Shown: positions 28,826 through 39,825 of the stretch, piece by piece
Layout: each line of letters starts with the position of its first letter
Position numbering within the stretch: the stretch's first letter is position 1
Source of the DNA: an uncultured Bacillota bacterium
GTDB taxonomy: Bacteria > Bacillota_I > Bacilli_A > RF39 > UBA660
DNA length: 43,628 bases
NCBI GenBank assembly: GCA_947364595.1
Contig: CANATJ010000004.1
Location: forward strand, 1 to 43,628
Direction of reading: 5' to 3'
Translations under genes and position numbers: made by a program
The notes under the pieces: model-generated
The model's input: only the letters and a program-made list of their open reading frames with translations
What the model was told of the DNA's origin: nothing
Databases searched by the model: none

Positions 28826-30853
28826 AGTATTTACTATATTTCTTCTTGTTTTAAGTGTTATATATGTAATTATCAATATAAATAAATCAAATATAAGCAT
28901 ATACAATAATCAAAAAAAATAAATGGTAAAGTAATACAATGTGCTTCAAAACAAAATAAAACACAATATATAATAAAAAATAAAGAAAAAGTATTAATAA
29001 ATTATGATCAGAAAACACTTTGCCAATTAGGAAGTATAATAAAAGTTACTGGAAAAACAGAATTGCCAAAACCCAATACTAATTTTTTTCTATTTAACTA
29101 TAAAAACTATTTATTAAGTAAAAACATAAAAATAACATTTAAAGCTGAAAAAATAGAAATAATAAAAAACAATAAACAATTTAAATATAAAATAATTAAT
29201 AAACTTAATAAAAAAATAGATAATTATAAGTCTAAAAAATATATGCAATCATTAATACTAGGAAACAACATTATAGATGAAGAAATAAAAGAAAGTTATC
29301 AGAAAAACGGAATAAGCCATTTACTGGCAATTTCAGGAATGCATATATTAATTTTATCTGGGACTTTACTATTTATTTTAAATAAAATTTTGAAAAACCA
29401 AAATATATCATATATAGTTATAATGCTTTTTTTAATAATATATATGAGTATAACTAATTTTACTCCATCTATTGTAAGAGCTATTTTAATGTTTATTGTA
29501 ATGACAATAAAAAAACAATTAAATTTAAAAATAGAAAGCAAAATGGTGCTAATCCTAATTTTTAGTGTTTTTTTATTAATAAATCCATATTATATATATA
29601 ATTTAGGGTTTCTTTTATCATTTATTACATCGTTTTATATAATGTTATTTAATAAAATAACAAAACAATATAATACAAAATCACAAAAATCATTTGTAAT
29701 TTCTTTAATTGCTTTTTTGGCAAGTAGTCCAATTATAATAAATAATTTCTTTTCATTAAATTTATTATCACCACTTATAAATCTTGTTTTAGCGCCTTTA
29801 ATTAGTGACCTAATTTATCCATTATCACTAATTAGTTTAGTAATAAAACCAGTAGATGATATATTATTTTTACTAATAACTTTTTTTGAGAATATATCAT
29901 TAAAACTAAATAAAATAAATTTTCTAACTATAACATTGTGTCACATAAATATAATTTTTATTATTTTATATTATATTTTAATAACTTTTATATTACATAA
30001 ATGGGACAAACAAAAACCATATTTTTTAATATTTTTTTTACTTACTCTTATAATTCATAGTAGTATTAATATATTAAATCCATATACAAGTTTAACTATG
30101 ATAGATGTAGGTCAAGGAGATAGTCTTTTGATAAAATTAAAACATAATCAGGGCAATATATTAGTAGATACAGGTGGACAAAAAAGATATGATGGTAAAA
30201 AGGAGTTTGATATAGCAAAAAAAATTACTATTCCTTATTTAAAAGCTGAAGGAATAAGAGAAATAGACTATTTAATTTTAACACATGGGGATTATGACCA
30301 TATGGGTCAAGCTTTTAATTTGATAAATAGTTTTAAAGTAGATAAAGTTATACTTAATAATGACAAATTAAATGAATTGGAATTAAAACTTATCAAAATT
30401 CTTGAAGAAAGAAATATTCCATATTATCAAAATATAAAAAAATTAAATATAGATAATAATAAATTATATTTTTTAAATGACAAACTTTATGATAGTGAAA
30501 ATGATAATTCCAATGTAATATATACAAAGTTTAATAAAATTAAATTATTATTGATGGGTGATGCCGGAGTAAATGTAGAAAAGGATATATTAAATAAATA
30601 TATTATCGAGAACATTGATATTTTAAAAGTAGGCCATCATGGCTCTAATACAAGTTCTAGTGAAGAATTTATAAATAAAGTTAATCCTAAATACAGTTTA
30701 ATATCAGTAGGTAAAAATAATAGATATGGACATCCTAAAAAAGAAGTTTTAAATAATTTAAGATATACTAAAATATATAGAACAGATACAAATGGTAGTA
30801 TTAAAATTATATTAAATAGGCAAAATTATAAAATTAAAACATGTGTGTCATAA
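28794..30853 (+). CDS. comEC: ComEC DNA-uptake channel, reading frame broken at an A8 run
   Basis: ComEC pulls single-stranded DNA across the membrane during competence. From a TTG at about 28794 (overlapping comEA) one frame encodes a basic start and one membrane helix (VFTIFLLVLSVIYVIININ). It then stops at 28920-28922, just after an 8-A run (28912-28919). The next frame continues directly with INGKVIQCASKQNK, the N-terminal OB-like region (LINYD, LGSIIKVTGKTELP), the competence domain (SHLLAISGMHILILSG, multiple helices to about 30060), and a metallo-beta-lactamase-like domain (MIDVGQGDSLLI, THGDYDHMG, VGHHGSNTSSSEEF). One extra A would restore a single protein of about 686 residues, near the family length. 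This is a mutation, polyA slippage or a sequencing error. Its last 30 bases are repeated at 31898. Confidence 0.88.
28912..28919 (+). other. A8 homopolymer at the comEC frame break
   Basis: Eight consecutive A residues lie exactly at the point where the upstream and downstream comEC frames meet. A ninth A, or a -1 ribosomal slip, would join them. Confidence 0.85.
30823..30852 (+). repeat. Direct repeat copy 1 (comEC 3' end)
   Basis: A 30-base stretch ending in the comEC stop region is identical to 31898-31927. The repeat ends ...CATGTGTGTCATA. The two copies are 1075 bases apart and bracket dinD. Confidence 0.92.
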
Positions 30854-30869
30854 AAAGGAGAATAATAAA

Positions 30870-31715
30870 ATGAATGAAATAAAAGAATATACAGAAAAGT
30901 TATTTGAAGATATAAAACATATAGAAGGAAATGGAGATGAGTACTGGTTTGCGCGTGAATTGATGCCTTTACTTGAATACAGTAAATGGGAGAATTTTAA
31001 TAATGTAATTCAAAAAGCTGTGATAGCTTATAAAAATAGTAATAATGATGATTCATATTGGCTTCCCGAGATTAGGAAGCCAATAATAACTGGTAAGGGA
31101 AGAAAAGAATTTATTAAAGATTATAAATTGTCTAGATATATATGTTATTTAATAGTTCAAAATGCTAATCCTAAAAAGAAGATGGTAGCTTTAGGTCAAA
31201 CATATTTTGCTATTCAAACAAGAAAACAAGAGTTAAATAAAAAAGATTATAGTGAGCTTACTGAAGATGAGAAAAGATTTTACCAAAGGGATTTGACCAA
31301 AAAAGGAAATTATTCTTTGAATATTGCTGCTAGGAATGCAGGAGTAAAAAATTTTGACAAATTTCATAATAGTGGTTATAGGGGATTATACAATGGTGAA
31401 ACTGCAGATGATATAGCTAAAAGAAAGAATTTAAGATATAGAGAAGATATTTTAGATAATATGGGTAGTGCAGAACTTGCTGCCAATTTATTTAGGATAA
31501 CGCAAACAGAGGAAAAACTTAACAACGATAATATTAAAGGCGAAAACAAAGCGAACACAATACATTATAATATTGGAAAAAATATTAGAGAGGTTATAGC
31601 TAAAAATGGTGGTATTATGCCAGAAAACTTGCTAACACCAAATAAAAGTTTAAAAGAATTAGAAAAAGAGAGAAAAAATAATAGTAAACGACTTCACAGT
31701 AAGAATATCGATTAA
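30870..31715 (+). CDS. dinD: DNA damage-inducible protein DinD
   Basis: The 281-residue protein is close in length to E. coli DinD (274) and matches it along its length. It has an N-terminal BRO/antirepressor-like domain (EYWFARELMPLLEYSKWENF), SRYICYLIVQNANPKKKMVALGQTYFAIQTRKQEL, the middle GVKNFDKFHNSGYRGLYNGETADDI, LDNMGSAELAANLFRITQTEEKL and the C-terminal IAKNGGIMPENL. DinD is known as an SOS-induced modulator of RecA filaments; related genes travel on phages and islands. ATG 30870 follows AAAGGAG. No LexA operator was recognised upstream. It sits between two copies of the comEC 3' end. Confidence 0.94.
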   Translation: MNEIKEYTEKLFEDIKHIEGNGDEYWFARELMPLLEYSKWENFNNVIQKAVIAYKNSNNDDSYWLPEIRKPIITGKGRKEFIKDYKLSRYICYLIVQNANPKKKMVALGQTYFAIQTRKQELNKKDYSELTEDEKRFYQRDLTKKGNYSLNIAARNAGVKNFDKFHNSGYRGLYNGETADDIAKRKNLRYREDILDNMGSAELAANLFRITQTEEKLNNDNIKGENKANTIHYNIGKNIREVIAKNGGIMPENLLTPNKSLKELEKERKNNSKRLHSKNID

Positions 31716-37073: not shown

Positions 37074-37192
37074 ATACCTGCTCCTTTCTAAACTATTATA
37101 TGCATTTTAAATAAAAATGTTTTATTTTTGACATTATATGTGATATAATATCAATAGTTATAATAAAAGAATAGGAAGGTGGCGAGGTATAC

Positions 37193-39052
37193 TTGAAATT
37201 TGTACTTTTATCATGCAATTTTGTTTATAAAACAGTTGTCCTATTTTTGAATTTTATATCTAAACTTTGTAAATATATTTTCCAAGGATTTATCACCACC
37301 ATTAAAGTTATTCTAGAATTTTTTAATTATGCCTTAATTGGTGTAAAAAGTTTATTAATTTTAATATTATTAATGCTTTCGTATGCATTATTTACTATTA
37401 AAATTTTAATTGGTTTTATTAAACACAGAAATTATGAAAATAAAAAACTTAAAGCTCAAAAACAAAAAGAAGAAGCTTTAAGGAGACATGAAATTTTATT
37501 AGCTAAGGCTAAAGAAAAAGAGGCAAAAAAGGCCAAAGCTGAAGCTGCTCTTCGTGATAAAATGAATGCAGCTGCTGAGAAAAAAAGGCAAAGAGAATTA
37601 AATACTTATGTTAATGATAAAGAAAAAATTGAGAAAAAGACTTTTGCTGATAGATTAGATAGTTTAGGAAACAAAATTATTGCTTTTCCTAAAAAAGTTA
37701 AAAGAAACATAAAAAACAAATGGAACAATTTAACATTTGTAAAAGAAGCCCATAATAGACGTGATATCAACAGAGAAGTTTTGTTGATAAATTTTGATGG
37801 GGAAGATGCAAAAAAATCAAAAATTAAGCTTACATATGAATATGTAATTAAAAATCCTGAAGGTAAAATAGTTAAAGGATATTTTGATGCTTTTTCGAAA
37901 GTAGAAGTTCATTCATTTTTGCTTAGTGAAGGAAATACAGTATATAGTATTAAAACGTCTAAATGGATTCAATTAGTACATGGACATCGTGGCCAAGCAC
38001 ATACAAAATTTAAAATGAAGGATTTAACATTTTTCTTAGCTCAACTTTCAACTTATATTAAAGCAGGTATTCCGTTAGTTGACTCAATAAAAATACTAAT
38101 TAAACAATTTAAAAACACTAAATATAAAAGCATTTTAAAAAATATTGTATATGATTTAAGTACAGGTCAAAGTTTTAGTGAAGCTTTAGAAAAACAAGGT
38201 AATGCTTTTCCAAATATTTTAATAAATATGATTAAATCAGCCGAAATGACTGGAGAACTTCCAGAGGCCTTAGATGATATGGAAGAGTATTTTTCAGAAG
38301 CTGAAGCAACTAGAAAAGCTATGGTAACAGCAATGATGTATCCAGCTATAATATTTATTATTGCTATTGGAGTTGGAACATTTATAATGTTATTTGTTGT
38401 TCCAAAATTTGTTGATATATATAAAACGATGGATAATGCTGATATACCTGGTATTACAATGGCTGTATTGGCTTTAAGTGATTTTTTACAAAAATATATA
38501 ATATGGATATTTGCTGTATTTATAATTTTGTTGTTAATATTCTTATATTTGTATAAAAATGTTAAATCATTTAGAGGTGTAGTTCAATGGACATTAATGC
38601 ACTTACCAGTATTTGGCAATGTTATCATTTATAATGAAGTAACGATGTTTTCAAAAACATTTGCTTCATTATTATCACATAATGTATTTATAACTGATAG
38701 TATGGAAATTTTAAATAAAGTAACGAATAACGAAATATACAAAATGATGATATTTGATTCAATAAATAATATTGCTAAAGGAAAAACAATTTCTGCAGCT
38801 TTTAAAGATCAATGGGCTTTTCCAATTCCAGCATATGAAATGATAGTTACAGGTGAAAAAACTGGTCAACTTTCAGAAATGATGAAAAAGGTATCAACAT
38901 ATTATCAAGATTTACATAAAAATGCGGTTGCTCGTATTAAGACATTTATTGAGCCTGCATTAATTATAACTTTAGCTATTATGGTTGGTGTTATTGTTTT
39001 AGCGATAGTTATTCCAATGTTCAATATTTATGGTACAATTCAAGCTCAATAG
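37193..39052 (+). CDS. pilC: Type IV pilus/T2SS inner-membrane platform protein PilC with long N-terminal extension
   Basis: The 619-residue PilC/GspF family protein is about 200 residues longer than usual. Residues 1-80 hold two or three hydrophobic segments. Residues 82-150 form a Lys/Glu/Ala-rich coiled coil (KLKAQKQKEEALRRHE and following). A basic linker comes next. The normal PilC start appears only at about residue 210 (KLTYEYVIKNPEGKIVKGYFDAFS). Two GspF domains follow: FFLAQLSTYIKAGIPLVDSIKIL with SAEMTGELPEALDDM (about 275-395), and FSKTFASLLSHNVFITDSMEIL with VTGEKTGQLSEMM (about 485-605), each followed by membrane helices. A TTG start at 37193 follows GCGAGGTATAC. pilD follows after 11 bases. 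Confidence 0.92.
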   Translation: MKFVLLSCNFVYKTVVLFLNFISKLCKYIFQGFITTIKVILEFFNYALIGVKSLLILILLMLSYALFTIKILIGFIKHRNYENKKLKAQKQKEEALRRHEILLAKAKEKEAKKAKAEAALRDKMNAAAEKKRQRELNTYVNDKEKIEKKTFADRLDSLGNKIIAFPKKVKRNIKNKWNNLTFVKEAHNRRDINREVLLINFDGEDAKKSKIKLTYEYVIKNPEGKIVKGYFDAFSKVEVHSFLLSEGNTVYSIKTSKWIQLVHGHRGQAHTKFKMKDLTFFLAQLSTYIKAGIPLVDSIKILIKQFKNTKYKSILKNIVYDLSTGQSFSEALEKQGNAFPNILINMIKSAEMTGELPEALDDMEEYFSEAEATRKAMVTAMMYPAIIFIIAIGVGTFIMLFVVPKFVDIYKTMDNADIPGITMAVLALSDFLQKYIIWIFAVFIILLLIFLYLYKNVKSFRGVVQWTLMHLPVFGNVIIYNEVTMFSKTFASLLSHNVFITDSMEILNKVTNNEIYKMMIFDSINNIAKGKTISAAFKDQWAFPIPAYEMIVTGEKTGQLSEMMKKVSTYYQDLHKNAVARIKTFIEPALIITLAIMVGVIVLAIVIPMFNIYGTIQAQ

Positions 39053-39063
39053 GGGGAATATAT

Positions 39064-39825
39064 ATGGAAGTACTTATATCAATTTATTTATTTATAATAG
39101 GAACTGTTTTCGGTTCCTTTTACAACGTTGTAGGATATCGACTTCCAAATGGTGATTCAATTGCCTTTCCACCTAGTCATTGTCCAAATTGCAATTATAA
39201 GTTAAAATTTTGGGAATTAATTCCAATAATTTCATTTATATTTCAAAAAGGAAAATGTACTAATTGTAAAGAAAAAATATCATTTATATATCCTTTCTTT
39301 GAAGGCTTAACTGGAATTTTGTTTGTCTTATCATATTTATCGTTTGGATTAACACCTAAACTTATAATAGCATTAACCTTTATCTCAATGTTAATAATAA
39401 TTATTGTAAGTGATTATGAATATATGATAATTCCAGATGAGGTATTAATTTTCTTTGGTATACTTTTATTTATAGAGATATTATTAATAAATGGACCACT
39501 AATTGCATTAAAGTCAATTTTTCATGGTTTAATTGCTTTTTTAATAATGTTTTTACTAAAAAAATTTGGAGATTTTATTTTTAAAAAAGAGTCAATGGGT
39601 GGAGGAGATATAAAACTATTATTTATTTTCGGGATGGTTTTAACTTCTCCAATAGCTATATTATCAATATTTTTGGGGTCGTTAATTGGCCTTCCAATTT
39701 CCCTTGTTATGCTAAAAAAAGATAATAGCCATATAATTCCATTTGGACCATTTTTGGCTGCTGGAGCTATTATACTTTTATTAATGCATATAGATTTAAA
39801 TACAATAATAAGCTGGTATATATAA
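39064..39825 (+). CDS. pilD: Type IV prepilin peptidase (PilD/ComC)
   Basis: This 253-residue membrane aspartic protease processes prepilins and can methylate them. The first signature is VFGSFYNVVGYRLPNGDSIAFPPSHCPNC, followed by a second CxxC (CTNCKEKI), the zinc-binding pairs of the N-terminal domain. The catalytic Asp residues lie in VSDYEYMIIPDE and MGGGDIKLL, the GxGD-type active site. About eight hydrophobic helices are present. ATG 39064 follows GGGGGAATATAT. Together with pilC it indicates a pseudopilus for DNA uptake or a type IV pilus; the pilin and the ATPase are not in this window. Confidence 0.95.
   Translation: MEVLISIYLFIIGTVFGSFYNVVGYRLPNGDSIAFPPSHCPNCNYKLKFWELIPIISFIFQKGKCTNCKEKISFIYPFFEGLTGILFVLSYLSFGLTPKLIIALTFISMLIIIIVSDYEYMIIPDEVLIFFGILLFIEILLINGPLIALKSIFHGLIAFLIMFLLKKFGDFIFKKESMGGGDIKLLFIFGMVLTSPIAILSIFLGSLIGLPISLVMLKKDNSHIIPFGPFLAAGAIILLLMHIDLNTIISWYI

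Follow-up and report, generated by a model that had tools for sequence, protein, structure and literature searches.

A PilC platform protein with a long, variable N-terminal extension in a seemingly reduced type IV pilus machine of the uncultured order RF39

Platform proteins of the PilC/GspF family (T2SSF; 3jc8, 2whn) serve type IVa pili and type II secretion and are usually about 400 residues long with no extra N-terminal segment, a length that is customary rather than strictly defining. In Firmicutes the MNO proteins have been described as part of type IVa pilus (T4aP) assembly (PMC6916266, accessible part), and for the Com pilus of monoderms (ComGA/ComGB) a platform protein and an ATPase have been described as sufficient (PMC10191384, accessible part). 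The accessible parts of both papers pose as open questions the role of PilM/N/O in assembling the filament and the means by which platform and ATPase stay joined in their absence. Type IV pili have been mentioned in UBA9783 by a paper that names RF39 separately (PMC12306168, in the portion available), and genome reduction has been described in RF39 (PMC6784871), the available portion of which makes no mention of 'pili' or 'type IV'. Organisms of this order are known here from metagenome assemblies alone. No PilC extension of the type reported below was described in the literature searched (titles and abstract openings).

We analysed a stretch of 43,628 nucleotides (the window) from an uncultured member of this order (contig CANATJ010000004.1) carrying a pilC gene of 619 codons (37193..39052, + strand), identified by its open reading frame and by domain and structure-homologue matches. 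The PilC/GspF core (37823..39049, + strand; Pfam, PDB, NCBIfam and Foldseek) consists of a cytoplasmic N-domain and two T2SSF domains. PF00482 matched two stretches with 167.6 bits, the first from residue 281, and Foldseek matched the N-domain to the PilC/EpsF fold (3jc8, 2whn, 2vmb, 3c1q). On account of the T2SSF domains and of a resemblance to solved PilC that begins at residue 213, we place the normal protein at approximately residues 211-619, leaving 210 extra residues ahead of it; this agrees with the original prediction of an extension of about 200 residues before a PilC starting near residue 210. Alignments to TIGR02120 (GspF) and two PilC models begin at residues 207-215, each scoring under its curated cut-off. 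Because the core features are present, the protein is filed as a variant of the known PilC/GspF family despite its 619 residues, one that shares the N-domain fold and both T2SSF domains and differs by a 210-residue membrane and charged-helix extension. Against ComGB it scores 143.6 bits, under the cut-off of 240, and it is closer to T4aP PilC; to our knowledge no such N-terminal extension exists in ComGB. Genome G056 holds both a 406-aa PilC relative (E 4.5e-54) and a shorter one of ComGB size (E 7.5e-10). The nearest homologous PilC proteins, at 25-32% identity, belong to T4aP operons of other Bacilli (L098, L099, L101, L102, L105), where, unlike in the order, PilC has about 405 aa, PilB carries MshEN (L098) and M/N/O-type genes lie downstream.

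The pilC frame begins with TTG and contains no internal stops. A Shine-Dalgarno-like stretch, GGAAGGTGGCGAGG (37174..37187, + strand), can be read in the sequence 5′ of the TTG, with GAGG 5 bases upstream of the start codon (GGTGG/GAGG at 5-10 bases). The TTG itself, and two relatives in which an ATG near residue 154 is preceded by a Shine-Dalgarno-like word (AGGAG in L043, GAGG in L040), would fit a misplaced start, with the true PilC beginning at about residue 200, behind a frame that is separate or untranslated. The window pilC, unlike these two relatives, lacks such a word with an ATG near residue 154. A word-list scan found none ahead of the in-frame ATGs at extension residues 61 and 124, and a strong start near 37800, the internal start singled out in the original prediction, was looked for in the window and not found. 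Most relatives of the same genus have an ATG with an AGGA-type site at the position matching the window TTG. Across 20 species pairs picked by hand, dN/dS of the extension was 0.06-0.48 in all 20 (0.03-0.13 for the core) and identity in the extension was below that of the core in every pair, a combination which indicates that the extension is translated, constrained and fast-evolving. On the sequence evidence the extension is a genuine translated part of PilC under purifying selection, and the fusion originally proposed from the uninterrupted frame is borne out. The ribosome site before the TTG, the starts of the relatives, the frame without a stop and the purifying selection effectively rule out the artefact of a wrong start, to which we attach a very small probability. 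Only two AGG codons occur in the window pilC; an AGG-to-Met code change has been reported for the order RFN20 (PMC8629427, accessible part).

Residues 1-45 (37193..37327, + strand; motif count, alignment and hydropathy) form a predicted basic amphipathic helix containing the first copy of an [RKHN]Y...G motif (KYIFQGF). Within it residues ~9-45 are both amphipathic and basic, with a moment of 0.46-0.52 in most 18-residue steps. The second copy (NYALIGV) falls within residues 45-78 (37325..37426, + strand; the same three lines of evidence), together with a segment at residues ~49-74 that is, by hydropathy, the only clear transmembrane-grade one of the extension (H ~0.7, moment ~0.15). Two or three hydrophobic segments had been expected; hydropathy shows one of transmembrane grade (49-74) and the amphipathic stretch 9-45. 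The following residues 79-135 (37427..37597, + strand; AlphaFold models, heptad test and composition) make up a charged helix with 20 K/R and 10 D/E, which had been taken for a KE/A-rich coiled coil. That assignment does not hold: in the best register, hydrophobic residues at heptad positions a and d showed no excess over shuffles among 65 charged segments of the family (mean z -0.11, three of them above z 2), the window segment itself scoring z -0.57, and a classical coiled coil is excluded for want of a heptad signal. Charge pairing at i+3/i+4 was slightly above shuffles (mean z 0.96, with 10 of the 65 segments above 2). 'Charged helix' seems to us the better term for this part, which may be a rod of the single alpha-helix type. 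The basic linker foreseen ahead of the core was recovered at residues 136-210 (37598..37822, + strand; AlphaFold models, alignment and composition), which are mostly of low confidence or disordered in the models; within the genus, conservation is highest in the final ~17 residues of the linker (NREVLLINFDGEDAKKS).

Structure prediction with AlphaFold2, built on 19-23 related sequences and reaching low pTM values (0.33-0.50), gave one helix over residues 2-134 in the full model, with pLDDT per ten-residue block mostly ~67-79 and lower at both ends. Modelled by itself, as the original prediction had suggested, the extension gave one helix over residues 2-152, with blocks mostly above 90, followed by a low-confidence linker; in both models confidence was low from the end of the helix up to the PilC core. 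A helix of either modelled length is too long and cannot be a single membrane crossing. The positive-inside rule, applied with the one clear transmembrane segment, gave no single consistent topology for the extension. The charged part is nevertheless predicted to be cytoplasmic, because no hydrophobic segment separates it from the cytoplasmic N-domain of PilC, and on this topology binding of the extension to the cell wall is disfavoured. No Pfam domain matched the extension above its cut-off, a PDB sequence search with it gave no match, and none of the Foldseek fold matches at E <= 0.001 fell on it. The extension of a relative, L119, likewise gave no match in an NCBIfam search, and a search with it in ten family genomes retrieved nothing beyond its own gene and the pilC of G127, itself extended, by which a hydrophobic module common to other proteins was ruled out.

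Two motif rules, both written after inspecting the sequences, were counted against shuffles: the [RKHN]Y...G-hydrophobic motif, located in the hydrophobic parts, was found 91 times in 109 sequences (6.8 +/- 2.5 in shuffles), and an N-terminal motif of the P[FC]..[VI]Y[RKH] type in 55 of 122 (2.0 by shuffling), the window extension having only a variant form of the latter. A shorter Y...G-hydrophobic form occurred 158 times as against 48 in shuffles, the commonest spacings being 18, 22 and 26. The motif glycines of the window, Gly32 and Gly50, are invariant in an alignment of 19 extensions of the genus that omits the four shortest (L048, L051, L053, L056).

A PilC match was present in 176 of the 193 genomes of the order (one family, f1). 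We compiled 122 distinct PilC sequences of the family, a set weighted to the genus of the window and to high-scoring matches, plus about one each from many other genera. BLAST matches were kept at E <= 1e-40, by which L088 (2.78e-38) was dropped, identical cores were merged, and a 380-residue limit removed no row. All 122 have an extension, of 20-492 residues, these lengths being estimates since starts were taken from the first Shine-Dalgarno-like word; 85 extensions contain a transmembrane-grade segment, 16 are amphipathic and 21 are neither. Homologs sharing the extension were thus found as anticipated, and none of the 122 lacks one. Nine outgroup PilCs have from -1 to 5 residues at the same place, and the PilC frames that a search across the class gave beyond the family measured ~400-460 aa, with a few longer stop-to-stop outliers that include upstream sequence; absence of the extension from the rest of the class is here judged by frame length only.

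Length and make-up of the extension are highly variable and fast-changing across the family, some tails having only ~20-40 residues. A tree of PilC cores was made by a quick method that leaves 38 of its 128 inner branches open. In its two deepest clades most rows have tails devoid of a transmembrane segment (one is present in 0 of 8 and 2 of 18 rows), and the transmembrane label changes at least 16 times over the tree. Asn-rich disordered tails serve as the PilC extension in several genera, and those of L061 and L154 are long charged helices or arrays, the charged part of L061 being an in-frame tandem repeat with a 120-bp unit in 4.4 copies. The L149 extension (the PilC of G217) resembles a degenerate N-terminal half of PilC fused ahead of PilC. 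The great speed at which length and composition change, the repeated switching of the transmembrane label, tandem growth in L061, the Asn-rich tails and the degenerate half in L149 could all be accommodated by a near-neutral, loosely constrained accretion that membrane insertion tolerates, that does PilC no harm and that has little function. The low dN/dS in all 20 pairs, the two invariant glycines, motif counts far above shuffles and the retention of an extension in 122 of 122 sequences from reduced genomes speak against this, and we consider it rather unlikely.

The prepilin peptidase gene pilD (39064..39825, + strand; ORF and Pfam, A24_N plus Peptidase_A24) starts 11 bases past the pilC stop. 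The pilB of the same genome lies on another contig (L095) and encodes 449 aa with T2SSE; at L115 and L119 pilC-pilD converge on pilB. The order keeps PilB and PilC, with PilD in the genome of the window, L115 and L119 and pilin-like genes in the genome of the window and L119. In its class-mates L098, L099, L101, L102 and L105 the genes stand consecutively as pilB-pilC-pilin-pilD-pilM-pilN-pilO, PilM being labelled by PF11104 (L098) and PilN and PilO by position and size. A PilM profile built from seven class-mates identified PilM in none of the 193 order genomes, its five weak matches there (E 1e-4 to 1e-3) all lying in frames of 412-418 aa, the size of FtsA. The same profile was positive in 20 of 27 control genomes of the class that have a short PilC and stand outside the profile set. 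The remaining seven (G265, G275, G294, G335, G363, G376, G393) were dropped as counter-examples; of the five inspected, G275 and G376 are on short contigs, and G265, G294 and G363 have unassigned operon ORFs that might be divergent PilM/N/O. A PilM_2 match in the genome of the window, considered as a PilM remnant, lies in a 413-aa protein beside an FtsZ-like ORF and was assigned to FtsA.

PilT was likewise absent from all 193 order genomes at E <= 1e-60 or over the cut-off (control: 5 of 14 genomes positive), and the MshEN domain (GspE_N) of PilB from 34 of 34 family genomes as against its presence in 27 of 27 class genomes; the window genome's own PilB also lacks it. PilN and PilO of the class are too divergent for a profile search, and in gene neighbourhoods no genes of these types stand beside pilB or pilC in L095, L115 or L119; nor does a PilM/N/O set occur beside the own pilB (L095) or at the pilC-pilD-pilB loci of L115 and L119. 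Judged by gene position at these loci, PilN and PilO have probably been lost. The original prediction had proposed that genomes with the extension might lack pilMNO, and this stands for PilM (0 of 193 as against 20 of 27), with PilN and PilO covered by neighbourhood only. The genome of the window is 89% complete, so that single absences are weak and the order-wide counts carry the claim of loss. In this order a machine of T4aP type seems to have been cut back to a Com-like set; it resembles the Com pilus in its minimal complement without PilM and PilT, in an ATPase without MshEN and in the ComEC encoded in the window.

PilM/N/O would share the platform-ATPase junction with the extension, and it had been proposed that the extension replaces them. 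Direct substitution for this assembly sub-complex would account for the order-wide absence of PilM where PilC is extended, for a PilB also lacking MshEN and for the finding of the largest hydrophobic extensions in the same order. The short-tail genomes of the order do not bear this out. Several PilCs (for example L107, L108, L109, L110, L111, L113, L135) have tails of 20-64 residues and no hydrophobic segment, among them tails of 23 (L107, G083), 30 (L108, G079), 26 (L109, G177), 38 (L110, G206) and 49 residues (L111, G192), and their genomes are without PilM and PilT; MshEN was found in none of eight short-tail genomes (G063, G078, G079, G083, G148, G177, G192, G206). Since short tails dominate the two deepest clades and go with the same losses, the losses appear independent of the long extension. 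As far as these genomes tell, PilM, MshEN and PilT can be lost without a long extension being present, and such an extension may have been elaborated after the parts were lost. No sequence relation between the extension and PilM/N/O was found; the charged rod is predicted to be cytoplasmic, whereas the globular domains of PilN and PilO lie outside the membrane, and the Com pilus functions without MNO or a substitute (PMC10191384, in the accessible part). As a general rule the replacement idea is unsupported, and for long-form extensions it is weakened but keeps a small probability; we regard direct substitution for PilM/N/O as improbable.

We tentatively favour, with slightly less than even confidence, a reading in which the extension, particular to this lineage, would serve the platform as membrane tether and rod in a stripped, Com-like pilus of type IVa derivation. 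Its basic amphipathic and hydrophobic part would insert in the cytoplasmic membrane, or lie on it, alongside the platform, and the charged helix and disordered linker would extend into the cytoplasm close to the PilB hexamer. Tether and rod could then keep platform and ATPase in place, or set their spacing or position, where neither a PilM ring nor an MshEN docking domain is available. Repeat number and rod length would be loosely constrained, as for a spacer or anchor and not for a catalytic or lock-and-key part. Against this reading, 21 of the 122 extensions lack a hydrophobic segment and some tails are very short, so that a PilM-less machine can do without the addition. A more far-reaching version, in which PilC became its own scaffold after the loss of PilM, PilT and MshEN (and probably PilN/PilO), the extension holding PilB and repeat number or rod length serving as an evolvable spacer, seems to us doubtful. 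The basic amphipathic helix followed by a hydrophobic segment, and the repeats combining tyrosine with a basic residue, could also suit an extension that senses curvature or lipids and so localises the machine to a pole, the septum or a special lipid patch instead of holding PilB. Such a role, which we think unlikely, would explain neither the charged rod nor the conserved linker.

A T4aP-type machine thus appears to have lost PilM, MshEN and PilT across an order whose platform protein gained an addition of 20-492 residues, and this natural length series lets the platform-ATPase question be posed by swapping extensions. If PilC has indeed become its own scaffold, a self-tethered platform-motor complex would be of a kind absent from the literature searched.

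The ComEC/Rec2 gene of the window (29063-30853) scores 291.9 bits, over the cut-off, a hint at a possible role of the stripped pilus in DNA uptake. Its end is overlapped by a few bases by the gene of a BRO-N domain protein (30843-31715). Divergent from pilB, at L095:4361-5872, lies a gene for a 503-aa pilin-like protein whose C-terminal region resembles DUF6273 at a score below cut-off; the protein is a candidate large minor pilin or adhesin. The genome, of 1.04 Mb, has three type IV filament loci, including two Tad-like clusters. That on contig C11 (L096:171-11132) contains an ATPase, ORFs of TadB/TadC size, pilin-like ORFs and a 708-aa polytopic ORF. That on contig C23 (L035:7224-12250) comprises two TadE-like ORFs, CpaE-like, CpaF/TadA, TadB and TadC; its 497-aa TadB-like protein carries an N-terminal Ig-like region (Bact_surface_Ig-like, 99-166), which makes it, after PilC, the second platform protein of this genome to bear an addition at the N-terminus.
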